A stretch of 64,000 nucleotides of DNA. Source: Hyphomicrobiales bacterium (lineage in GTDB: Bacteria > Pseudomonadota > Alphaproteobacteria > Rhizobiales > JAJFHB01). Numbering within the stretch: the first letter of the stretch is position 1; the number at the start of each line of letters is the position of its first letter. Below, piece after piece: positions 3,981 through 33,397 of this stretch. The stretch is from NCBI GenBank assembly GCA_021775755.1, contig JAJFHE010000052.1:1-64000 (forward strand), in the 5' to 3' direction. Made by a program: the position numbers and the translations under genes. The notes beneath the pieces were generated by a model. That model had not been told where the DNA came from. It worked only from the letters and a program-made list of their open reading frames with translations, and did no database searches.

Positions 3981-4656
3981 AGCCCGCCTCAAAAAGCTTT
4001 TCTGCAATTATGAAATCATGCTCCTCATCAAGATCCACGGCCTCAAGGGCGTCAGTAATGTACATATAGGGTCGGTTGCCGATCCGTTTGCGGGTTTTTA
4101 CAAATTCTTCGCCGCTAAATATGTAAAAACATGAATTTTCTTCGAAATATGGAGGTAAGTCTTGTGTTTTCAAAAGTATATTATCGTTATGATTAACCGG
4201 CCTAGACAACTCGTCCCAATATCTACACTGTCTTTTTGTTACACTAAAAACAGAATCGTATATTGGATATTTCTCCATAAATATATTTATTGCATCGTCA
4301 AATGTTTTCAGTCCAATTAGAGGGTTTGTAGAGTGAGTTTGTAAGTAAAATGTAGATTCTATTTTCTCTACATCGTGTAATAAAATATCATTCATTGGTA
4401 CCCAGTCACCTAGTAGTTCAGATGGTCGATCTATCACAATGACATCGGGGTAAATATCCAGGCACTGTTCTTTTATCAATTCTGAATCTGTGTTGATTAC
4501 GACCCTTTCAATTCTCTTACACGCTAAAAGTTTATCCAGCGTATGCTGGTACAAGGGTCGCCCGTCTCCAAACGCCCGGTAGTTCTTGCCAGGAATCCGC
4601 ACCGATTCGTGTCGCATTGGCATTAGTGCTATAAGCGAATAAGTCATTCTAGCCAC
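3970..4656 (-). CDS. Acylneuraminate-type (CMP-sugar) cytidylyltransferase
   Basis: A 228-aa protein of the NeuA/KdsB-like cytidylyltransferase family, which activates a nonulosonic acid or related acidic sugar with CTP. The N-terminal nucleotide-binding signature is clear (ALMPMRHESVRIPGKNYRAF), followed by the TLDKLLA helix and, further on, LQTHSTNPL, the region that contacts sugar and metal. The start at 4656 is GTG; an in-frame ATG lies at 4647 and is equally possible. The gene is clearly AT-rich compared with the chromosome, suggesting acquisition by transfer. It is coupled by overlap to the dehydrogenase downstream. Which acidic sugar it activates is unknown; no NeuB or NeuC homologue is in view. 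Confidence 0.85.
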   Translation of the reverse strand: MARMTYSLIALMPMRHESVRIPGKNYRAFGDGRPLYQHTLDKLLACKRIERVVINTDSELIKEQCLDIYPDVIVIDRPSELLGDWVPMNDILLHDVEKIESTFYLQTHSTNPLIGLKTFDDAINIFMEKYPIYDSVFSVTKRQCRYWDELSRPVNHNDNILLKTQDLPPYFEENSCFYIFSGEEFVKTRKRIGNRPYMYITDALEAVDLDEEHDFIIAEKLFEAGYGR

Positions 4657-4728
4657 GCCCTAAACATGGTTGTTTTCGAGCCATTATTGCACTTATGGCG
4701 CTATAAGTAAGTAGGTATATCAAAATTG

Positions 4729-5673
4729 TTACCTATTGTTGTAATCTATTATATTTACGTCAGTTTTATAACTTTTTTCATTTCGTAAATTTTCAGATGG
4801 ATAGTAAAATCTCTTCACCAATTCTCTTCTGCTCATTTCTCTCAAGTTAAATCCCTGATACGTACCAATAAACTGATTGATGCGAAAGAGAGCTATTTCT
4901 AGAATTGTTCTCAATAGTACTTTGTTCTTGCATGAAGTCATCGCATCCACTGCGATGTTTACAAGCGTAAGGCGTGCTGCATCTAACAGACTGAAATGGA
5001 GCTTATCGTCCTCGATACCCCTTAGCGCTATTGCCTCTCGCCGATACCTGTTCCTGACCTGAGACCAATTCTCCTCATGCACGTGAACAATTTCTGCATC
5101 GGACACGTAGGCCACTTTTCCTCCGTCGCGTACGGCTTGTTTCGCCCAATGCAAGTCTTCCAATCCTGTTAAATCTTCGTCATATCTTCGACGATCCCAA
5201 TCACTCTTGCGAATGGCGCAGTTGGCGTTATTGCAGAAATAGCCTCGTTGCGGCACTTCTGAGGTGTCTGGAAACCACGTTTGAAAAAGGCACTTTTCCG
5301 AAAAATTGTTAGTCGGCCCGCCTCGTTGTTTCCCGTACGATACCCGTATTGCTTCCGATCGAAACGGCCCCAGTAAGTTTCCCAGCCACCCCTTCGAGAC
5401 GGGATAAACATGCGCGCTCACAAAGACCAGGTACTCTCCCTTGGCAATTTCGCAACCGACATTCAGCGCCTTCCCAAATGTGAATTGCTCCTTTTCAATT
5501 CTGACAACCCGTGCGTTATGAGAATGCGCAATCTTGCGGGTTCGGTCAGTTGAACCAGAATCAACGACGATAACTTCGTGGTCCTGATATTCTTGCGACT
5601 CAATCCCATATAAAAGCTTTCCTAAATGTTCCTCCTCATTGTAAGCCCGAACTATAATAGATGCCTTACACAT
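4729..5673 (-). CDS. Family 2 glycosyltransferase
   Basis: A 314-aa GT2 enzyme. The N-terminus has the hallmarks ASIIVRAYNEEEHLGKLL and EVIVVDSGSTDRT, with the later segment GLEDLHWAKQAV corresponding to the ED motif near the catalytic base. A C-terminal helical region (about 230–300) may associate with the membrane, but no clear multi-pass segment is seen. The ATG at 5673 is preferred over one 23 codons upstream because homology begins there and AAGGCAG lies about 8 bases before it. It is AT-rich, like the neighbouring cytidylyltransferase, and transcribed in the same direction. It probably transfers a sugar during exopolysaccharide or LPS assembly. Confidence 0.8.
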   Translation of the reverse strand: MCKASIIVRAYNEEEHLGKLLYGIESQEYQDHEVIVVDSGSTDRTRKIAHSHNARVVRIEKEQFTFGKALNVGCEIAKGEYLVFVSAHVYPVSKGWLGNLLGPFRSEAIRVSYGKQRGGPTNNFSEKCLFQTWFPDTSEVPQRGYFCNNANCAIRKSDWDRRRYDEDLTGLEDLHWAKQAVRDGGKVAYVSDAEIVHVHEENWSQVRNRYRREAIALRGIEDDKLHFSLLDAARLTLVNIAVDAMTSCKNKVLLRTILEIALFRINQFIGTYQGFNLREMSRRELVKRFYYPSENLRNEKSYKTDVNIIDYNNR

Positions 5674-6444: not shown

Positions 6445-7503
6445 ATGGGGGGAGGTATGAATCGTGAAACGGAAAAGTCACAACAGGAAAAGGGTAAAGC
6501 GTCTGAGTCTCACAATGAAGTGGATCTGTCGGTTGGCGAGATAGCCGAGCATCTACGCGGACTAGCGGCATCTGGGCGTCGGCAGGGCGTAGAGAGTACG
6601 GACTTCGGCGAGTGGCGATCACGGTATCAATCGGAGGGCTTTGCCGGTCTGCGTGATGTTGAAGACCGCGGCACGGCGACCTCGCGCGGGACTTCGATTG
6701 AACTGGCTACAGGGGTGAAAAACATCGCATTCGCGCACCCTGCTCTCGGATGCAATCGCATCGAATTGTTGTTGGAAAAAGAAGGCGTGTCGCTTTCGTC
6801 TGTCACCATTCAAAAGATCCTGAATGAAAACGGCATTGGGACACGGAGAGAGCGGGCGGCGGCTTTAGAAGAGGCTCTTAGAGCGGAGGGCTTTGCGCCG
6901 AGCGCTGAACAGGTGTCCTTTCTGGAAAAGATGAATCCCTGCTTTCGCGAACGGGCGTCAGAGAGTAAAGCTCCTGGCAAAAAAATGGCGGCTGATACTA
7001 TATTTCTGGGCAAAGTGACGGGTCTCGGTAAGATTTACTTGCACGCGATGATCGATACCTTCTGCTCTTATGCTTTTGGCTTTTTGCATCCATCGAAACA
7101 GCCGGAAGCGTCCGTTGCGTGTCTGCATAATCAGGTGCTGCCGCACTACAGGACTCTGGGCATCGGCATCGCCACGATTGTTACAGATGGTGGTCGCGAG
7201 TTTTGCGGTACGACTTTGCACCCATATGAACTCTACCTGACGCTCGCTGGAATCCAGCACGTCCGAAGAAATCTCGACGAATTTGCCAGCAACGGTTTCG
7301 CAGAACGGTTTCGACAAATTGTGAAAGAGGAGTTAGTCAAAGGCCGACTGCAAGGGCAATCTTTTGAGACACTCGAAGCGCTTTCGATTGAATTTGACAC
7401 CTGGTTGCGCGAATATAACCATCTCCGGCCAATGCACGGTTATCGCAACTACGGTCGCACACCGTTCGAGGTCCAGAGCACACATCTAACAATCAAAGAC
7501 TGA
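6445..7503 (+). CDS. Integrase-core (rve-type DDE) transposase, IS481/IS3-like
   Basis: A 352-aa transposase. The N-terminal half (about 30–135) is helix-turn-helix-like, ending in ILNENGIGTRRER, the usual end of the DNA-binding region in IS481/IS3 relatives. The catalytic core follows, with acidic residues at about D184 (AADTIF), D248 (IVTDGGREF) and E287 (NGFAERF). The tail LREYNHLRPMHGYRNYGRTP is typical for the family. It appears full-length and uninterrupted. I could not find clear terminal inverted repeats, so it may be a stranded copy or a lineage with short ends. It sits between the polysaccharide genes and a broken galU and may have contributed to decay there. Confidence 0.8.
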   Translation: MGGGMNRETEKSQQEKGKASESHNEVDLSVGEIAEHLRGLAASGRRQGVESTDFGEWRSRYQSEGFAGLRDVEDRGTATSRGTSIELATGVKNIAFAHPALGCNRIELLLEKEGVSLSSVTIQKILNENGIGTRRERAAALEEALRAEGFAPSAEQVSFLEKMNPCFRERASESKAPGKKMAADTIFLGKVTGLGKIYLHAMIDTFCSYAFGFLHPSKQPEASVACLHNQVLPHYRTLGIGIATIVTDGGREFCGTTLHPYELYLTLAGIQHVRRNLDEFASNGFAERFRQIVKEELVKGRLQGQSFETLEALSIEFDTWLREYNHLRPMHGYRNYGRTPFEVQSTHLTIKD

Positions 7504-7610
7504 GTTGTTGCACAAGCTGGCCTTTGGGCCGCTGTCCGTTCCTGGTTGTGCGACAGCCAGCGAAAAACCAGCAGATCACAATTTTCCTGCCGGTGTACGC
7601 CTTATGACAA

Positions 7611-8535
7611 CTACCGGCGCCAGACGGCCGTGATTCTCCAGACACCGTAACTCAATTCAACGTTATGCAGAACATCGATCATCGCCTTTGCAAAATTCCA
7701 CCTTGGACCTTCGCGGCTGAGCGCAAAAGCGACGTTGGCTGACAGAAAACCGGCCTTGTCTGCGCAGTCAGAGGAGCGGCCCCTGAAATGGCAGTCGTAC
7801 GAATCCTTGGTCTGCATGAGACCGAGCAACGCGTCGGCGATCTGGACTTCGCCGCCGGACCTCAGGTCCAACGATGTCAGAATACCGAAAATCTCAGGCT
7901 GTGGAATGTAGCCGCCCAAAATTATCAGGTTCGAAGGAGCTTCCTTCATCCTGGGCTTTTCAGTCATGCCGGTAATCCGGAAGGCATTGCCGAGGTCCTC
8001 GCCGACACCAACGACACCGCAATTTTGCGGAAGCGTTCACGCGGCACTCCTCGGCTGCGATGATGTTACCGCAATGTTCGTTGTAGATATCCATCTTCTG
8101 CGCAAGGCAGCCGCGATTGGCGTGGATGAGAACGTCCGGCAGAAATAGGGCAAAGGGCTCATGGTCAACGAGTTCGCGGGCGCACGACGCTAAGTTACCC
8201 AGCCCCAACGACTCTTGCTGGCGCGTAAAGCTCGTTTGCCCTGCACTCCCGCAAGTCGCCTTCCAACAGCTCCAGTTCTTCGAGTTTATCGCGCTGGCGC
8301 AGGGTTTCCTCCAATTCATACCGCTTATCGAAGTGGTTCTCGATGAGACCCTTGTTGCGGCCGACGATGAAAATGAAGTGCTCGATGCCGGCTTCGCGCG
8401 CCTCATTGCCCACGATCCGAATGGCCGGACGGTCGACAACGGGCAACACTTCTTTGGGCATTTCCTCGGTGGCGGGCAGGAAGCGGGTGCTCAAACCTGC
8501 CACGGGAAGCACACCTTTTATCTTGAAGAGGCATC
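7611..8535 (-). pseudogene. galU: galU (UTP–glucose-1-phosphate uridylyltransferase) pseudogene
   Basis: On the minus strand, GalU sequence is spread over three reading frames. Around 8512 the N-terminus reads VLPVAGLSTRFLPATEEMPK and continues to DLRECRANELY. After a frame change near 8220 it continues as TSFTRQQESLGLG and PFALFLPDVLI. After another near 7970 it continues as EKPRMKEAPSNLIILGGYI and AGFLSANVAFAL. Key residues have drifted (an N-terminal TKAMPKE-type motif reads TEEMPKE) and the C-terminus is degraded. No proper start codon is visible. GalU makes UDP-glucose for polysaccharides, so its ruin beside the polysaccharide genes suggests the island copy is dispensable. Confidence 0.85.
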
Positions 8536-12328: not shown

Positions 12329-13495
12329 ATGGCCAAAGTTACTCTTAAAGATGGCAGCGGCCGACTTACGCTTAAACACCTTGTCGAAGATGTTGATCGG
12401 CACGGCAACGTTCGCCTCTACGTGCGCCGCGCGGGCAAGCCCAAAATCCGGCTTCGCCAAACACCCGGAACCCGTGAATTTATGGAAGAGTACTGGGTTG
12501 CAACCAGCGATAACCCTAATCTACCTCAAAGTACGGCCAAAAAAATACATCCGATCAAGAACGGCTCTTTCCGCTGGCTTTGTACGCAGTATTTCGGCTC
12601 CGCCCAATTCAAAGCTCTTGCCAAACGAACGCAATATGTTCGACGTCGGGTTCTTGAACGCATTTGTGCAGCCGACGGCGACAATCCCTACGCAAAATTG
12701 GAGGCACGCCATATCCGCAAGCGCCGGGACGACCGTGCTGACACCCCCGAAGCCGCCAACGCTATCGTTAAAGCTCTCCGCCAGGTCTTCAGTTTCGCAG
12801 TCGAGTACGAGTTAGCTGAACGAAATCCGGCCAGCGACGTTCCCTACATTAAATCCGGTTCCCAAGGCCATCATTCGTGGACAATTGATGAAGTTCGCCA
12901 GTTTGAAGGACGCCATCCCATAGGCACGAAAGCGCGTCTTGCACAGTCTATCTTACTCTACACAGGTCAACGTCGCTCAGACATCGTACGGCTGGGCCCG
13001 CAGCATACAAAAAATGGCTGGCTAACCTTCACCCAAGCCAAAAACCGCGAACGCAAACCGATCACACTATCGATTCCGATCTTGCCAGAGCTGCAATCTG
13101 TAATGGACGCCACGGCGGTCGGAAACCTTGCCTTCCTCACTACCCAGTTCGGTAAGCCCTTTACATCGAATGGATTTGGCAACTGGTTTCGGAAGCGCTG
13201 TGACGAAGCCGGATTGCCACATTGCAGTGCTCACGGCTTACGCAAAGCCGGCGCCTCAATTGCCGCCGAGAACGGCGCAACGGAGCGTCAGCTTATGGCT
13301 GTCTTTGGGTGGACCACAATGAAAGAAGCGGCGCGGTATACCCGTGCCGCTCGCCAAAAGGTGCTGGCGGCATCCGGCATTAAACTGCTTAGCCTGGAAC
13401 AAAACGAGAGCAAAAGTGTCCCACTTTTTCCCGACAAGGATAGCGGTGGGACAAAAACAGCTGCTAAGTCATTGAAAAACAACAGCACGGATTAA
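12329..13495 (+). CDS. Tyrosine integrase of the left-hand island
   Basis: A 388-aa tyrosine recombinase. The N-terminal arm-binding region is basic. The catalytic domain has R215 (TGQRRSD), H302 and R305 (AHGLRKAG), W328 (FGWTT) and Y337 (ARYTR), so the active site looks complete. AGGAAT precedes the ATG by about 8 bases. The stop codon lies only 4 bases before the partial tRNA-Phe repeat at 13499, as expected for an integrase beside its attachment site. It therefore belongs to the island on the left, not to the 19.8-kb element on the right, which has its own terminal integrase. Confidence 0.9.
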   Translation: MAKVTLKDGSGRLTLKHLVEDVDRHGNVRLYVRRAGKPKIRLRQTPGTREFMEEYWVATSDNPNLPQSTAKKIHPIKNGSFRWLCTQYFGSAQFKALAKRTQYVRRRVLERICAADGDNPYAKLEARHIRKRRDDRADTPEAANAIVKALRQVFSFAVEYELAERNPASDVPYIKSGSQGHHSWTIDEVRQFEGRHPIGTKARLAQSILLYTGQRRSDIVRLGPQHTKNGWLTFTQAKNRERKPITLSIPILPELQSVMDATAVGNLAFLTTQFGKPFTSNGFGNWFRKRCDEAGLPHCSAHGLRKAGASIAAENGATERQLMAVFGWTTMKEAARYTRAARQKVLAASGIKLLSLEQNESKSVPLFPDKDSGGTKTAAKSLKNNSTD

Positions 13496-13498
13496 GTG

Positions 13499-13549
13499 GT
13501 GGTGCCCAGGGGCGGATTCGAACCACCGACACGCGGATTTTCAGTCCGC
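13499..13549. repeat. Left attachment repeat, partial tRNA-Phe (51 bp)
   Basis: These 51 bases are identical to 33321–33371, which cover the CCA end, T-arm, variable loop and the 3' half of the anticodon stem-loop of the intact tRNA-Phe. Identity stops where the left copy continues GAGGACAC and the tRNA continues TGCTCTAC. This is the typical footprint of integration into the 3' end of a tRNA gene by a tyrosine integrase. Confidence 0.92.
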
Positions 13550-13706
13550 GAGGACACAACATAACATGTTGATAGATACGACAAAAAGTGAAGTCAATTT
13601 GTATATGTGTAAAAAAATGTGTAAGTTTTACCGTCAAATATGATCCCACAATCTACAGATTTCGGGTATGAGTGACGGTCAGCCTAATGGCTGTGATTTC
13701 ACCCAA

Positions 13707-14217
13707 AGGGTGTTCACGTGGGTGTACATATTTAACATGAACACCCTGCTAATCAGCTAATCCGCTGATATTATTCAACTTGTTCCGCAATACTAGGGGT
13801 CGGGTCAATGCCCGACTTCATGTCTCTATCTCACTCTCTAACGGTCGTTCGACTATCGGCACTCGCACTGCACCAGCTTGCTCGTCGGAACTCCTGCGCA
13901 AGCAGGCTTGGCTCGGCTAGAGCCATGAAGTCGGGCATTCTCGTTTTTGCATCCAATCACTGCGTCGGCAAAGCCTCCTTGCTCTTGGGCAAAATCGGAA
14001 GCCGACCCCTAGTATTGCGGAAACGAATTGGTGCGGAGCACCGAACGACTTCATGCCTGCGGCATGTGTCTAACTACTAGCGCCGGTGGCGCTAACTATG
14101 TGTCCGCCAAAAGCGGACTCGACTTGCGGGGTAGCTACCCCGCGTAATTGCCTGACATCGAACGAGTCAGTGCAATTACCCGCACCACTCATGTTGTGTT
14201 GAGTGGTGCGCTTTTTT
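13707..14217 (+). other. Cluster of inverted repeats at the left end of the element (structured RNA or origin)
   Basis: Successive perfect or near-perfect inverted repeats: AGGGTGTTC with its complement (13707–13747); a 21-bp arm at 13783–13803 pairing with 14002–14022; inside it a 16-bp arm at 13807–13822 pairing with 13924–13939; then hairpins at 14052–14066, 14078–14094, 14102–14118, an 18-bp palindrome at 14126–14143, a bulged stem at 14146–14177 and a rho-independent terminator at 14182–14217. No coding frame is convincing. The order ending in a terminator suggests a structured noncoding RNA transcribed rightwards. An origin of transfer or replication, or binding array, is the alternative. 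Confidence 0.6.
14182..14217 (+). terminator. Rho-independent terminator
   Basis: GCACCACTCA pairs with TGAGTGGTGC across an 8-base loop and is followed by a run of six T. It lies just before a TATAAT box at 14228, separating the structured region from the first ATPase gene. Confidence 0.85.
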
Positions 14218-14436
14218 GTAAGTGCGATATAATAATCTGTGGCCGAGATGAAGTACTTGCATTCTGTCATATCTCGGAGCAAGCCCCTTTCTGTATCGGT
14301 ATGCCAAAAGCATTACACCGATAGCGGCACGGTGGTAATCGACACACAAATATCTGAAACCGTCAGGCGAGCGCTAGGCGCTCACTCCCGTACTCGGCAC
14401 TTGTTGCTGAGGCACAGCAGGGGCTTGCTTTGGCGT

Positions 14437-15726
14437 ATGAATGACCAAAATAATCACATCGTTTTAGGCGCACGGAGTGACGCTCCGGTTGTGCTCACGC
14501 GCGAAAATCGTGCGCGCCATTTGTACATTATCGGCGGGACCGGAACTGGTAAGACCACGCTCGTTGAACGCTGCATCCAACAGGATATTGCAAACGGTGA
14601 TGGTGTTGCCGTTGTCGACCCGCACGGTGACATGGCCGAGCGATTGCTCGACCATATACCGCCAGAGCGGACGAATGATGTCGTGTACTTTTCGCCACAG
14701 GATACCGAACATCCAATTGGCTTGAACATTCTCGCGAATGTCCCGCCCGCCAAGCGGGCGCTTGTCACCGACGAGGTCGTGACAACATTCAAGCACCTAT
14801 GGAACTTGTCCGAGGAGCGAACGCCGCGCATCATCTACTATCTGCGTAACGGCATCGCGACGTTGCTTGAAGTGCCGGGGACGTCGCTGTTGAGTCTCGC
14901 ACTGCTGTATACGGACCACCAATATCGCAAGCGCATTGTTGGCCGCGTAAAGGATAAGGGGCTGCGACGATTTTGGGATGAAGAGTGGTACTCACTAAGT
15001 GAGTCGAAACAGCACGAGTATGTGCTTCCCATCCTTACGCGCGTCAGTCGCTTTCGCGACACACCGATGATTCGCAATATCATCGGCCAACCGACCAACA
15101 AATTCGATATGCGGTTTCTGATGGATAATCGGCGCATCTTCATCGCCAATCTTCCGAAAGGAATTATTGGAGAGGACAATGCGGATTTGTTGGGTTCGAT
15201 GTTGGTGACGAAAATCTATCAGGCTGCTATGTCGCGCCTCGACACGCCGGAGGCGGAACGGGTGCATTTTTATCTCTATACGGATGAATTTCAAAACTAC
15301 GCGACTGATGCATTTGCCTTCGTCTTGTCAGAGGCGCGTAAGCTGAATCTGTCAATTACGATGAGCCATCAATATTTGGAGCAGGTGCCGCCCGACATCC
15401 GCAATGCCGTACTCGCTAACGCGGGCACACTCATTGCGTTTAGTGTTGGTGCCGACGATGCAGAAACGCTTGCAAAGAGTTTTCGGCCGTACCCACCAGA
15501 GGAGCTTGAAGGTCTGGCTCCCTACAGGGCGTACGTCCGGTCGCCGGGCACGGGAGGCTACGCGCAACCGTTCCCAATGCGTACTTATGCTCCGGCAGTG
15601 CCGGCGCATGTAGCTCAGCGTGAAAAAGTGCTTGCGAGAAGTCGACAGTGTTACGCACGACCGCGCGCGAAAATGGACCGTCTCCTTAATCGACTTTTCA
15701 CATCGTCTAGTTCTGCTTCTGTATAA
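14437..15726 (+). CDS. VirD4/HerA-like ATPase 1 (coupling-protein type)
   Basis: A 429-aa P-loop ATPase of the TraD/VirD4/HerA class. Walker A GGTGTGKT is at 33–40, the VVDPHGD strand at about 59–65, and Walker B YLYTDEFQNY near 279–288. The C-terminal arginine-finger region follows (LSITMSHQYLEQ). No transmembrane segment is seen, unlike classical VirD4. The ATG at 14437 gives the same distance to the Walker A motif as in the second ATPase of this element. The frame is open back to a GTG at 14239 that lies 5 bases after a TATAAT box, so a 495-aa form is possible. It probably pumps or handles DNA during transfer or replication. Confidence 0.85.
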   Translation: MNDQNNHIVLGARSDAPVVLTRENRARHLYIIGGTGTGKTTLVERCIQQDIANGDGVAVVDPHGDMAERLLDHIPPERTNDVVYFSPQDTEHPIGLNILANVPPAKRALVTDEVVTTFKHLWNLSEERTPRIIYYLRNGIATLLEVPGTSLLSLALLYTDHQYRKRIVGRVKDKGLRRFWDEEWYSLSESKQHEYVLPILTRVSRFRDTPMIRNIIGQPTNKFDMRFLMDNRRIFIANLPKGIIGEDNADLLGSMLVTKIYQAAMSRLDTPEAERVHFYLYTDEFQNYATDAFAFVLSEARKLNLSITMSHQYLEQVPPDIRNAVLANAGTLIAFSVGADDAETLAKSFRPYPPEELEGLAPYRAYVRSPGTGGYAQPFPMRTYAPAVPAHVAQREKVLARSRQCYARPRAKMDRLLNRLFTSSSSASV

Positions 15727-17696: not shown

Positions 17697-18998
17697 ATGT
17701 TCCTGGCAGTGTATAACTACTTTGTACCGCTACTTATTCTTACCTTGAGCATATTCTACATATATGGGTACTTGGTTGCTGTAGGGTATGCTCGAGATTT
17801 CTCGAGCGACGAAGTGCGCCGGTCGGCTACGTCGGTGGGCCTGTGGTCGATGCTCCTGCCGGCACCGTTTTTTTTTCTGTCCTTTGCAGTGGGCCTTCAA
17901 ACTGCCAAGCCACTGCAAGGTATTGCCGTTGACTTGCCGTTTTTAGTTGCAGCACTGCTAGGAATTTTACTGCTGATTGTGGGACTTGCATTCTATATCG
18001 TCGCCCTTTTTGCTGCTATAGCAAACCTCATTTTAATGCCTGCCATCCTTGTTCTTGCCATCGCCAATGCACCTGCTTTCATTCTTGGCTGCATAGTGAC
18101 GTTCCACTATCTTTTTATAGTGCCGTCGAGCGTCAAAGAATCTCGCAAAGCGCGCCGCCGACAGATTATTAATACCGACGAGTTTGCGCGCTCGATTACA
18201 AAACCGGATGAATCGATGGGGTTGTGGGAAAAGTTTTTTACGCCGGCATTTGTGATGCGGCACGCAGCCGCTCACCTTCGACGAGAGGCGGCCGTAATGG
18301 CGGCCGAGAATGCCCACGCGAATGCTGTCTTTGGGGCAGCAGTCGATAATAATTGGCGTGTGGAGAGAGGCCCAATGAAAGAGAAAGAAGACTCTGCGAC
18401 GGATTCGTCAGACGCGCCCGTCACGGACGACGAACCTCACGTTCCGGTGCCTGTTGACGGTGAGGTTGTGTCCCCCGGTCAGAGTTTCTCAATGGGGGAT
18501 GAACTCACCATTAGAGGCACTGGGTTCATACGCCGACAAGAGATAAAGCGTGAAACTAAAACCTTAAAGGCAGAAACCGGCCGTTTGGAAGCGCTCGAGG
18601 AGTATCTCGAAGCGGCAGAGAGAGCGAAGCGCGCCGCATATGCCCTAGGGGACACCATCAATTATGGCGCGACGCTCGAAGACGTTCAGGATGGTAACCG
18701 GAAGCGAGAGGAGACCGCTCGGGAGATTAGTCAGGTCAAAGCAGATACCGAACTCACCAATGCGAGGGTTGAGCTTGAAAAGGCGAGGCTCAGGCTTGAG
18801 ACGGTCGGCAACGCGTCGACGCAAAAGCCCAAGCCGCAAACGGAAATAGAGCGCAGACGGGCACATCGAAGACAGAGGCGAGAAGAGACAGTCGCTATTA
18901 AGGAGGAGTATGCCCCACTGATTGCTGCGGCAACCGGTAAAGAACGCAAGCGGCTCATGGATGAGTGTGACGCCCTGATACGGAAACTCTTCGAATGA
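17697..18998 (+). CDS. Membrane protein with coiled-coil cytoplasmic tail, partner of ATPase 2
   Basis: A 433-aa protein. Residues 1–150 contain about four transmembrane segments (for example YFVPLLILTLSIFYIYGYL, then further stretches near 48–67, 81–115 and 118–145). The rest is cytoplasmic: a proline/acid-rich linker near 230–265, then a long charged coiled coil (about 285–400) and a basic stretch (RRRAHRRQRREE). Its stop overlaps the start of the ATPase 2 gene by 4 bases (ATGA), so the two are translationally coupled. GAGGGAA sits about 9 bases before the ATG. It may anchor the ATPase to the membrane, taking the place of the membrane domain missing from it. I recognise no named family. Confidence 0.75.
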   Translation: MFLAVYNYFVPLLILTLSIFYIYGYLVAVGYARDFSSDEVRRSATSVGLWSMLLPAPFFFLSFAVGLQTAKPLQGIAVDLPFLVAALLGILLLIVGLAFYIVALFAAIANLILMPAILVLAIANAPAFILGCIVTFHYLFIVPSSVKESRKARRRQIINTDEFARSITKPDESMGLWEKFFTPAFVMRHAAAHLRREAAVMAAENAHANAVFGAAVDNNWRVERGPMKEKEDSATDSSDAPVTDDEPHVPVPVDGEVVSPGQSFSMGDELTIRGTGFIRRQEIKRETKTLKAETGRLEALEEYLEAAERAKRAAYALGDTINYGATLEDVQDGNRKREETAREISQVKADTELTNARVELEKARLRLETVGNASTQKPKPQTEIERRRAHRRQRREETVAIKEEYAPLIAAATGKERKRLMDECDALIRKLFE

Positions 18999-20689
18999 CC
19001 CTCCGGCCACTCTTACTTGGCAAAGACGAGCGTGGTCGTGATGTGTTGTTCTCACAAGCCGAGCGAGAGACTCACACCCACATTATCGGTGTGTCGCGTC
19101 GGGGTAAGAGCAAGCTCCTCGAGAACATAGTCCGTCAAGACATCAACGAGGGTCGTGGGGTGTGTGTCCTCGACCCGCACGGCACACTCTACAAGGACAT
19201 TGTGAGGTGGTGTGCGTCAGTTGACCATGTCATGCACGGCCGCACCATCCATCTCCTTGACGCCGGTAACGTCGGAAGTGTTCCGGGGTTCAACGCGTTG
19301 CGTGTTCGGCCGGGTGAAGACGTAACGACGAGAGTACGCACAATGGCTTCGGCTATTGGTCAGATTACAAACACGGATTTATCGAACACCCCACAACTCA
19401 AGGAAGTACTGCACTCAATTCTCCATACCCTTGCGGTGAACAATTTGACGCTTGTTGAAGCGAAGTATTTGCTCAGTGCTTTGGACACGTTGCAAGTGCG
19501 GGAGTACCTCACTGCGAACATCGAACATCCGGTACAGCGGTTCCAATGGCAGCGTTATGACGATATGAATCCGTCGCAGTATCTGGAGAACGTGGCGAGT
19601 ACTTGTCGGCGGCTTGTTGACCTCGTTTACTCGAATGCGGTTCGGCGGATTCTCGGTCAAGCCGATGGTTTTGATTTTCGCACTGCGATGGACAATGGCG
19701 ACGTGGTACTCGTCAATTTGGCAACCACCAATCAGTTCCAATACAACGATGCCAAACTTATAGGCAGGCTCATCATCAACACCCTCTACACCGAGGCGTT
19801 GGGTAGGGGAGAGGGTGGCCGGCCATTTCATCTCATCATCGATGAGTGTCATCGGTTTCTCACCGACGACATTGTCAACAGCCTAGACGAGACGGCGAAG
19901 TTTGGGCTTCACCTGACGCTTGCGCATCAACGGCTCGGGCAGTTGCGCGATGCCGATGAGCGGGGGAACATCTACAACGGTGTGATGTCCAGTGCACAGA
20001 ATAAAATCGCGTTTGGTACGCTCGAACCGGAGGATGCGCGGCTCTTGGCCGAGCGCCTATACTTTGGAGAGTTCGATCGTGATGAGGTCAAGACCGCGTT
20101 TAACAAGCCGACTGTGGTCGGTTACGATTTGGTACGTCTTGCCGGTGGTTCACATGCAGATGGCTACGGACATTCAGAGAGTGAGAGCAGTTCATCAAGT
20201 GCCACCATGAGCGAAACATTCGATGGCACAATTACGGGCAACGACGAGCGGCAAGTATGGGGAGAGAGTGCCGGTGATACGGCCGCCCAGAGTGCGAGTA
20301 TCTCTTTTACTCATACAAACACGAGCGGATGGAGTGAGACGTACCGTCCTGTTTTGGAGGACCGGCCGACACTGCCATATTCACTCGACGAGCAAGTGTA
20401 CCTAAAAGCTCGTGAGCTCTTTCTTCTGGCCAAGCGTCAGGCAATCTTGAGCATACCCGGAAAGCCAAGCCGGTTGTTTCTCTCACGCTTTGTCCAAGAG
20501 CCATTGACGACTGATGAGTTTGTGGCCTCGTATGAGGCCAAGCAGCACGATAGAGCGAGCTTCACGGCAGGCCCTCAGGCGATTGATGAACTGATAGAGG
20601 AGCGCGGTCGCGCCCTTATAAAAAGTGCCGGCACTGCCGAGGATTTTTTCGCGGCGGTTGACTTCAAGGAACCCGTACCCGAGGAGTGA
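18995..20689 (+). CDS. VirD4/HerA-like ATPase 2
   Basis: A 564-aa P-loop ATPase. Walker A GVSRRGKS is at 32–39, VLDPHGT at about 57–63, and Walker B FHLIIDECHRF near 280. The sensor region follows in FGLHLTLAHQRLGQLRD. Around residues 380–450 there is a serine/threonine-rich, probably disordered insert (HSESESSSSSATMSET) followed by a region beginning YRPVLEDRPTLPYSLDEQVY. It lacks transmembrane segments. It overlaps the upstream membrane-protein gene by 4 bases and is followed closely by the Replic_Relax gene. Together these look like the core DNA-handling operon of the element. It is only distantly similar to ATPase 1, so they are not a recent duplication. Confidence 0.88.
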   Translation: MTLRPLLLGKDERGRDVLFSQAERETHTHIIGVSRRGKSKLLENIVRQDINEGRGVCVLDPHGTLYKDIVRWCASVDHVMHGRTIHLLDAGNVGSVPGFNALRVRPGEDVTTRVRTMASAIGQITNTDLSNTPQLKEVLHSILHTLAVNNLTLVEAKYLLSALDTLQVREYLTANIEHPVQRFQWQRYDDMNPSQYLENVASTCRRLVDLVYSNAVRRILGQADGFDFRTAMDNGDVVLVNLATTNQFQYNDAKLIGRLIINTLYTEALGRGEGGRPFHLIIDECHRFLTDDIVNSLDETAKFGLHLTLAHQRLGQLRDADERGNIYNGVMSSAQNKIAFGTLEPEDARLLAERLYFGEFDRDEVKTAFNKPTVVGYDLVRLAGGSHADGYGHSESESSSSSATMSETFDGTITGNDERQVWGESAGDTAAQSASISFTHTNTSGWSETYRPVLEDRPTLPYSLDEQVYLKARELFLLAKRQAILSIPGKPSRLFLSRFVQEPLTTDEFVASYEAKQHDRASFTAGPQAIDELIEERGRALIKSAGTAEDFFAAVDFKEPVPEE

Positions 20690-20733: not shown

Positions 20734-21663
20734 ATGAATAGTGACTATTATTACGAACATACATTCACGCGCCGAGGCAAACAGGATGTGGTTGTGCAGC
20801 CACGCGATGCTGAAATTATCGTACGCGTTGCAAAGAACCGTTTCATTGACTCTCAAGATATCCAGCGTTTGACCGGAGCGTCGTACCGCCCGTTGTTACG
20901 CAGACTAAAACTGTTACGCGATGTCGGTGCATTGATTGAGCCGCGTAGTACTCGCCTGCGCCGCACAACAAACGGTACCAAGCCAATGGTGTACGGTCTT
21001 GGAAACGTGGGTGCTGACTACCTCAGTAAAGTAGGTGTTCCACGTACCAATGTTGATTGGACAAAGCTCGCTCGCGAGTACACCGATTTTAAAATGGACC
21101 ACACATTGCTTCAGACAAAAGTGATGGTCGATTTTGAAATGTCCTGCCGTAAGTACCCGCGCTATGAGTTCTTCGATGAGTGGGCACTCAACCGTCGGCT
21201 AGGACTCCGCCGTGAATTGCCAATCAGCACACCGTTTAAATGGCAAACGCGACTGCCACATGTGGCCGCTCCGGTCGGTGTTGTTCCTGACCGCACATTT
21301 GCTATTTCCGATACACAAGAGCCGGGGTTCTTCTATTTTTTTGTGGAGGCCGACCGCGGTAAGGTTGTTCAGAAAAGCACGACGCAGCCGCTCAGACGAA
21401 CAGTTACGAGAAAACACGTGGCCTACCACCGCAGCCGAGAGGTGACGAAGAAGCTGTTTGGTATTGGCGCTTATCGTGTTTTGTGGGTGGCGCTTGGGGC
21501 CAAACGTGCTGAAAACATGCGCACAATGACCCGGCCACATATAGGCGATGGACAAGGGTCGCCGATGTTTCTGTATGAATCCCATGCAAATATTGCCGGC
21601 GACGACATCCTCACCGCAGAATGGACAAATGCGCGAGACGAACGTACGCGACTCGTTGATTAA
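20734..21663 (+). CDS. Replication-relaxation (Replic_Relax) family protein
   Basis: A 309-aa protein with a winged-helix N-terminus (residues about 25–95: FIDSQDIQRLTGASYRPLLR, then LRDVGALIEPRS) and the GLGNVGADYLSKVG motif, followed by DHTLLQTKVMVDFEM and a C-terminal domain with FYFFVEADRG. This layout is that of the Replic_Relax family found on plasmids and mobile elements, often beside VirD4-like ATPases. Members are thought to act in plasmid replication or as relaxase-like DNA-processing factors, but the biochemistry is little known. It lies 44 bases after ATPase 2 and has its own promoter. In the absence of a classical relaxase it is the best candidate for the protein that recognises the transfer or replication origin. 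Confidence 0.8.
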   Translation: MNSDYYYEHTFTRRGKQDVVVQPRDAEIIVRVAKNRFIDSQDIQRLTGASYRPLLRRLKLLRDVGALIEPRSTRLRRTTNGTKPMVYGLGNVGADYLSKVGVPRTNVDWTKLAREYTDFKMDHTLLQTKVMVDFEMSCRKYPRYEFFDEWALNRRLGLRRELPISTPFKWQTRLPHVAAPVGVVPDRTFAISDTQEPGFFYFFVEADRGKVVQKSTTQPLRRTVTRKHVAYHRSREVTKKLFGIGAYRVLWVALGAKRAENMRTMTRPHIGDGQGSPMFLYESHANIAGDDILTAEWTNARDERTRLVD

Positions 21664-22735: not shown

Positions 22736-23689
22736 CTAGTAATTCATCGCAAAGCTCGCCGACTTACGATGTCGTTTGACGGTATGATTGTACCCTTCCG
22801 TCGTTGTGATTGATGCGTGATTTACCGTGCGCTGAATATCCTCACCTTGCCATCCAGCTTCGTACGCTTGAGTAATAAATGTGGCTCTTGCCGAGTGGGG
22901 GGTGACGCCCGTCGGCAAAGCAGCGATACGAGCGTATTTTTCAAACAGCCGATAGAATTGCGTCCGACTGATTGGCTTCTTGTCGCGCGGGTTCTTCACA
23001 TGGCGAAACAGCAATCCATTGCGGTCGTCGCCGTGACCCGACACATCAAGATATTTTTGAACGGCAACTTGGCACTCTGTGTGTATGGCAATGGTGTTTG
23101 TCTGATCGCCTTTAGTGGTCATTTCCAAAACCCAATAGTCTCGATCTTTCCGCAGATCACTGACACGCAAGCTGCCGGGTTCTGACAGGCGGCATCCTGT
23201 ATAAAAGTAGACATGGAGTAACGCTCGATCGCGCACGCCTTGCACGGTAGTGGGGGAGGGAGCGTCAAGCATCGTGCGGACCTGAGCCGGCGTGAGGGCC
23301 GGCGTCTTACCGCTTCCCATTCCGGCTGTGCCGGTTTTGGGTCGCTTCACACCGGAGACTGGATTAATTGAGCAGAGGTTCTTGTCCGCGAGCACTTTAT
23401 ACAAGGAGGAGAGGGCAGCGAGTCGCGTTGCGATTGTTCCTTTTGAGCATCCGGTTTTTTTCATGTGATCGCGCCATGCAATCACATGCACTTTCTGAAC
23501 GCCGTACAGCTCCTCGGCGTTGCGGAGACCAAGTGCGACGATAAACTCACGCAGCGCACGCCGATATGCCACGCGCGTATTGTCCGATGTAAAGTTTGCA
23601 AGCCACACCTCTTCGGCCGGCACGTTTGCAAGCACGTCATAGCTGCTTTTGACGGCCGGCAGATTTGTCTTTTTTGGAGTAATTTCCAT
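22736..23689 (-). CDS. XerC/XerD-like tyrosine recombinase inside the element
   Basis: A 317-aa recombinase with an N-terminal SAM-like core-binding domain (about 20–105) and the catalytic set R167 (TGCRLSE), H265 and R268 (TPHSARATF), H291 (VNHASI) and Y300 (EGYNH). The internal ATG at 23689 is preferred over one ten codons upstream because TGCTACAAT, an extended -10 box, ends six bases before it. It differs from the two terminal integrases: it is shorter, without a long N-terminal arm domain, and far from either end. It may resolve dimers of the excised circle, or integrate a different unit. Confidence 0.88.
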   Translation of the reverse strand: MEITPKKTNLPAVKSSYDVLANVPAEEVWLANFTSDNTRVAYRRALREFIVALGLRNAEELYGVQKVHVIAWRDHMKKTGCSKGTIATRLAALSSLYKVLADKNLCSINPVSGVKRPKTGTAGMGSGKTPALTPAQVRTMLDAPSPTTVQGVRDRALLHVYFYTGCRLSEPGSLRVSDLRKDRDYWVLEMTTKGDQTNTIAIHTECQVAVQKYLDVSGHGDDRNGLLFRHVKNPRDKKPISRTQFYRLFEKYARIAALPTGVTPHSARATFITQAYEAGWQGEDIQRTVNHASITTTEGYNHTVKRHRKSASFAMNY

Positions 23690-23695
23690 ACAGAA

Positions 23696-23727
23696 ATTGT
23701 AGCATAGAATAGGTAACATAACCTATT
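23696..23727 (-). promoter_or_regulatory. Leaderless promoter and palindromic operator of the XerC-like gene
   Basis: On the minus strand TGCTACAAT ends six bases before the ATG at 23689. Just upstream, AATAGGT (23708–23714) and ACCTATT (23721–23727) form a perfect 7-bp inverted repeat with a 6-base spacer, positioned to block polymerase between -35 and -10. Confidence 0.6.

Positions 23728-33320: not shown

Positions 33321-33397
<77 letters not shown>

Follow-up and report, generated by a model that had tools for sequence, protein, structure and literature searches.

A predicted transfer origin built of nested inverted repeats in an integrated element encoding a MOBC relaxase

The integrated element and its hairpin region

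The window, by which we mean the whole stretch of 64,000 nucleotides analysed here, contains an integrated element delimited by an exact 51-bp repeat of the 3' end of tRNA-Phe. The second copy of the repeat (33321–33371) lies within tRNA-Phe itself (gene 33322–33397). The element encodes the proteins listed below, together with a DnaG-like primase and an integrase adjoining the tRNA. Among the ORFs scanned in the element no mating-pore gene was recognised, so that it looks like an integrative mobilizable element.

13499–13549, no strand assigned: attL, 51-bp copy of the tRNA-Phe 3' end and left element boundary (exact 51-bp match)
14236–14440, plus strand: structured leader of the ATPase gene, with a long closing stem that adjoins the start codon (z = −2.6)
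14437–15726, plus strand: ATP1, VirD4/HerA-like ATPase and probable coupling protein
18995–20689, plus strand: second VirD4/TraD-like ATPase
20734–21663, plus strand: MOBC-family relaxase, PF13814 Replic_Relax (E = 4e-15, above the curated cut-off)
22739–23719: Xer-like recombinase, the second tyrosine recombinase of the element

PF13814 corresponds to the MOBC relaxase superfamily (PMC5357655), and the window's protein keeps the PD...ExD...K motif, the signature expected of restriction-endonuclease-like MOBC enzymes (PMC12857230); a search by sequence found no solved structure matching it. A second integrase gene (12329–13495) abuts the left tRNA-Phe repeat, and a further element seems to be integrated in tandem on that side; no far-end repeat for it was found in the window, which begins at the contig end. 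Another element (L156), with an integrase 69% identical, has a similar ATPase leader with the same GCTTTGGCGTATG ending.

The original prediction placed a dense array of hairpins at the left end of the element. The boundary is the tRNA-Phe repeat, and the hairpin region starts ~160 bp inside it. Between 13707 and 14217 there are two hairpins on the left, a pair of nested inverted repeats, six hairpins on the right and then an intrinsic terminator:

13707–13719/13735–13747: left-flank hairpin I4, arms AGGGTGTTCA.../TGAACACCCT (inverted-repeat search and fold)
13752–13769: left-flank hairpin ATCAGC-TAATCC-GCTGAT (fold)
13783–13803/14002–14022: outer inverted repeat I1, 21 nt, 100% identity; 5' copy TTCCGCAATACTAGGGGTCGG (13783–13803), 3' copy CCGACCCCTAGTATTGCGGAA (14002–14022)
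13807–13828/13918–13939: inner inverted repeat I2, enclosed by I1, 22 nt, 95% identity, 16 nt of it perfect
13807–13828: 5' copy of the inner arm, reading CATGAA/GTCGGGCATT on the minus strand (the slash marks the predicted nick)
13918–13939: 3' copy of the inner arm, CATGAAGTCGGGCATT, which holds the alternative plus-strand nick, 13929/13930
14030–14042, 14052–14066, 14078–14094, 14102–14118, 14126–14143 and 14144–14179: six further hairpins (folds), possible candidates for relaxosome or transfer-termination hairpins
14181–14217, plus strand: intrinsic terminator CGCACCACTCA-TGTTGTGT-TGAGTGGTGCG-CTTTTTT (terminator search), which probably shields the transfer genes against read-through
14228–14233, plus strand: TATAAT, a possible −10 of the ATPase gene, without a good −35

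The 21-bp and nested 16-bp repeats, the strong terminator and the further stem-loops (at least five were predicted) are thus all present. The inner arm recurs a third time, in part, as CGACTTCATGCCT at 14046–14058; this copy lies inside a downstream hairpin and is a possible extra relaxase site. The predicted TATAAT box is there as well, although no sigma-70-like −35/−10 pair was found within 13500–14500. The region had also been described as lacking a coding frame, and this holds in substance, the one mechanical ORF (13808–14080, 90 aa) having no Pfam match.

The density of hairpins is far beyond chance, as had been proposed. The RNA fold of 13690–14222 has an energy of −243.6 kcal/mol, against −166 ± 6.6 kcal/mol for shuffled sequences (z = −11.7), and none of 100 shuffles folds as well. 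The opposite strand gives z = −12.2 and DNA parameters give z = −13.0; because both strands fold alike, under RNA and DNA parameters, the fold alone picks neither the strand nor the type of nucleic acid. The stretch 13701–14200 has the top score for hairpin and inverted-repeat density in the 64-kb window (42; the runner-up scores 19).

Nested cores beside other MOBC genes

At the DNA level the region stands alone. Searches of its own genome, relatives, plasmids and phages for homologues returned the window itself only, nhmmer and blastn found no DNA relative among 122 ATPase loci, and 13560–14440 has no plasmid match and no similar phage record. Relatives were sought through their proteins, with ATPase and relaxase searches of other genomes and IMG/VR. 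Upstream of the relatives' ATPase genes we find nested repeats whose arms are unrelated but whose junction between outer and inner stem is shared: GTCGGG-(few nt)-GCCCGAC on one side and GTCGGGC...CCGAC on the other. Flanking hairpins are present in several of these relatives too, differing in number and form; possible roles for them are the binding of accessory proteins and the halting of transfer.

A scanner for the nested-repeat topology with a CGAC/GTCG anchor, applied to both strands of 2.35 Mb of fetched loci, matched the window, L187, L195, L157, L153, L118, L114 and the near-identical pair L161/L151. A MOBC relaxase gene is found on the same contig or record in seven of the eight core-bearing loci besides the window; the exception is L118, where none was found in the 46.65-kb record. 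Three weaker matches (scores 22–25) look unrelated, and three Markov-shuffled versions of all the loci (~7 Mb) gave no matches. With a GACC/GGTC anchor the scanner recovers the plasmid CloDF13. No core is seen at about half of the MOBC loci that were examined, several of which are short contigs. ATPase homologues from the candidate phyla radiation have no such core upstream, which indicates that the ATPase alone does not predict it. Nor does the half-motif predict the structure, since its carriers, 80 viral contigs and 29 other genomic loci, show no comparable nested core; half-motif pattern scans of viral contigs and 385 genomes yielded, among the loci examined, the window's nested core only.

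As a further check we retrieved five plasmid records on account of their MOBC or ATPase genes. The Methylomagnum plasmid NZ_AP019788.1, picked solely for its MOBC gene, carries a nested repeat (4058–4158) in the gap that precedes this gene; the junction, GGTCTCGG, has diverged, and the repeat was detected only with a relaxed anchor. In Sinorhizobium fredii pSfHH103a2 (L354, NZ_LN735562.1) an array of near-identical simple hairpins with TCCAAA loops (~4300–5600) lies upstream of the MOBC coupling-protein gene and is perhaps a different type of transfer origin.

Some sequences near ATPase genes were set aside. The IMG/VR contigs L122 (914–1057) and L125 (3201–3318) have nested repeats upstream of their ATPase genes; these, and those of L055, were rejected as relatives as they lack the GTCGGG motif. 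The sequence GTCTCCATTGCCTC, common upstream of ATP1 in L112, L114 and L034 (with one mismatch), is absent from the window's ATPase leader. In the same three loci GTCTCCATT(G/A)CCTC occurs at L112:2524, L114:9771 and L034:79 in the same frame relative to the ATPase gene; the ATPases behind it are only ~40–46% identical to the window's, and it may be part of a coding sequence or serve as a signal.

Nine sequences (eight elements and CloDF13) were aligned over 26 pairs of the stems. Pairing is kept in 96.2% of cells and 18 of the 26 pairs have changed on both sides, values that gauge the freedom of the arm sequence and are not independent proof of the stems, since the sequences were picked for pairing and the blocks cut in register before alignment, so that covariation is partly built in. 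None of 500 shuffles reaches the observed values for pairing, changes on both sides or covariation, and sliding the partner by 1–3 columns lowers pairing to 34–46%. Compensatory changes, named beforehand as a mark of an RNA, do occur here, though they are expected of a DNA hairpin just as much. G-T pairs make up 2 of ~225 paired cells in the alignment and 7 of the 368 positions in the full stems (349 Watson–Crick, 12 mismatches), with a scanner that scores G-T as zero rather than negative. An RNA stem of such depth is expected to hold more of them, and their rarity is suggestive, though only suggestive, of DNA.

Comparison with CloDF13 and the predicted nick

CloDF13 is a plasmid that we take to be the MOBC prototype, with MobC as its relaxase and MobB as its coupling protein; its membership of MOBC is taken from the literature because the record (NC_002119.1, L166) has no intact MobC frame at 6700–7640, where the relaxase gene should be, possibly being an old sequence with errors. 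Its nic site was reportedly cut at GGGTG/GTCGGG in the work of Nunez and de la Cruz in 2001. We find GGGTGGTCGGGC once in the record, starting at ~9751 in a stretch without annotated genes, where it forms the base of the inner member of a nested pair of inverted repeats. The window has the same arrangement: GTCGGGC stands at the base of the inner stem, the nick position is followed by a local GTCGGGC...GCC-GAC hairpin, more hairpins lie around it, and the predicted direction of transfer leads away from the mobilization genes. The two differ in their spacers (3 and 62 nt in the window, 8 and 19 in CloDF13), in their unrelated arms and in setting, the window's site being integrated with an adjoining ATPase gene whereas CloDF13 is a plasmid. 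Outside the core there is no alignable DNA similarity between them, and with the CloDF13 region as query only plasmids of enterobacterial type are returned.

Taken with the nested repeats, the shared motif and the association with MOBC genes, this likeness leads us to read the following as the oriT core of an integrative mobilizable element with a MOBC relaxase, a prediction to which we give a probability of roughly 85%:

13783–14022, minus strand: predicted oriT core, made of nested inverted repeats that carry GTCGGG/CCCGAC motifs where the outer stem meets the inner one (repeats and relatives)
between 13817 and 13816, minus strand: predicted nic site, 5'-CATGAA/GTCGGGCATTGACCCGACCCC-3' (spacer asymmetry and CloDF13 alignment)

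The core is non-coding, lies 415 bp from the start of ATP1 and is separated by 6.7 kb from the relaxase gene on the same strand; that the nearer gene is an ATPase and not the relaxase counts against an oriT.

GTCGGG is present on both strands of the window's core and, since the motif is palindromic, the choice of strand rests on the asymmetry of the spacers. On the GTCGGGC strand of CloDF13 the longer spacer precedes the inner stem and the shorter one follows the nick; the position of the short spacer makes the minus strand of the window the equivalent one. The short spacer faces away from the following ATPase or relaxase gene in the window, its relatives and CloDF13 alike, and the proposed nicked strand retains GTCGGG in 7 of 9 sequences, the other strand in 4 of 8. 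The conserved nick-site sequence and strand bias suggested beforehand as marks of an origin are thus seen, as far as sequence can reveal them. We consider it likely that the minus strand is nicked at 13817/13816 and that transfer runs leftward through the attachment site. Mobilization genes entering last is the usual polarity of transfer.

Once the element has excised, the relaxase would recognise the nested palindromes and nick within the GTCGGG core, at the base of the inner stem. The VirD4-like ATPase or ATPases would then pass the strand headed by 5'-GTCGGGCATT... into a mating channel that a helper provides, the ATPase and relaxase genes reaching the recipient last. The terminator would stop transcription coming from the left ahead of the transfer operon. 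As the arms are conserved only as mutual complements, recognition is probably by way of extruded or single-strand hairpins together with the GTCGGG/CCCGAC junction.

Other known systems resemble this one in part. At the oriT of pAD1 the MOBC relaxase TraX, like the window's class, has no known covalent intermediate (PMC12857230); by description it binds five direct repeats 70–120 bp from nic, and no direct-repeat array of that kind was found in the window. Streptococcal mobilizable elements of the MOBC class likewise pair a PF13814 relaxase with a VirD4-type coupling protein, but have a serine integrase and Gram-positive hosts (PMC5357655). Salmonella genomic island 1 (SGI1) is, like the window's element, integrated with several inverted repeats near its mobilization genes; it uses the tyrosine-recombinase-like MpsA/MpsB where the window's element encodes MOBC.

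Alternative readings and significance

The original prediction left the choice between a large structured RNA and an origin that folds as a single strand. The origin half is favoured by the nested repeats, GTCGGG, the MOBC gene and CloDF13. A non-coding RNA, transcribed rightward, ended at the terminator at 14217 and regulating or acting in transfer, would fit the strong fold and the plus-strand terminator, the latter being the one feature that speaks positively for RNA, and it has a precedent in the essential small RNA encoded beside oriT in the SGI1 mobilization region (PMC9299015), this sgm-sRNA having no demonstrated counterpart in the window. We nevertheless regard it as improbable: Rfam, searched both at gathering thresholds and at E ≤ 5, gave nothing beyond chance, no sigma-70-like promoter was found, both strands fold equally well with stems that are almost wholly Watson–Crick, and the position of the terminator differs between relatives.

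The core could also be a vegetative or single-strand origin of replication, or the site of the Xer-like recombinase, and the element does have a primase and a second tyrosine recombinase; in SGI1, moreover, the tyrosine-recombinase-like MpsA has been proposed as the relaxase (PMC6414798). It is the MOBC gene, though, and not the recombinase gene that accompanies the core at other loci, and the CloDF13 nic region, which the core matches, belongs specifically to transfer, which makes this reading very improbable. Slightly less credible still is the insertion of a nested, MITE-like palindromic repeat that does nothing for the element. Mobile repeats do give rise to nested palindromes, as is apparently the case in L055, but the window's core is single-copy in a 5.5-Mb genome, no target-site duplication is seen, and the architecture reappears at MOBC loci with other arms and has its core in common with CloDF13.

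Read as a transfer origin, the site is of an ordinary kind but of a poorly known and unusual class, with a structural signature that we have not met described as general. MOBC relaxases rank with the least understood of their kind: a covalent intermediate with DNA has yet to be seen for them, and few of their transfer origins are known (PMC12857230). Origins that look unlike one another but have in common a nested-hairpin shape and a GTCGGG core provide material on how MOBC enzymes find and cut their sites. Whether nested palindromes on a GTCGGG/CCCGAC junction are the general signature of one large branch of MOBC oriTs we regard as an even question. If they are, the branch would take in enterobacterial plasmids at one end and integrated elements of environmental bacteria at the other, and the relaxase would recognise a DNA shape, the extruded nested hairpin, and not the sequence of the arms. 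The signature could then find mobilizable elements that current typing misses. The set of origins also offers a simple computational handle on oriT in integrated elements and in plasmids classed in PLSDB as "non-mobilizable", for example the Methylomagnum plasmid.
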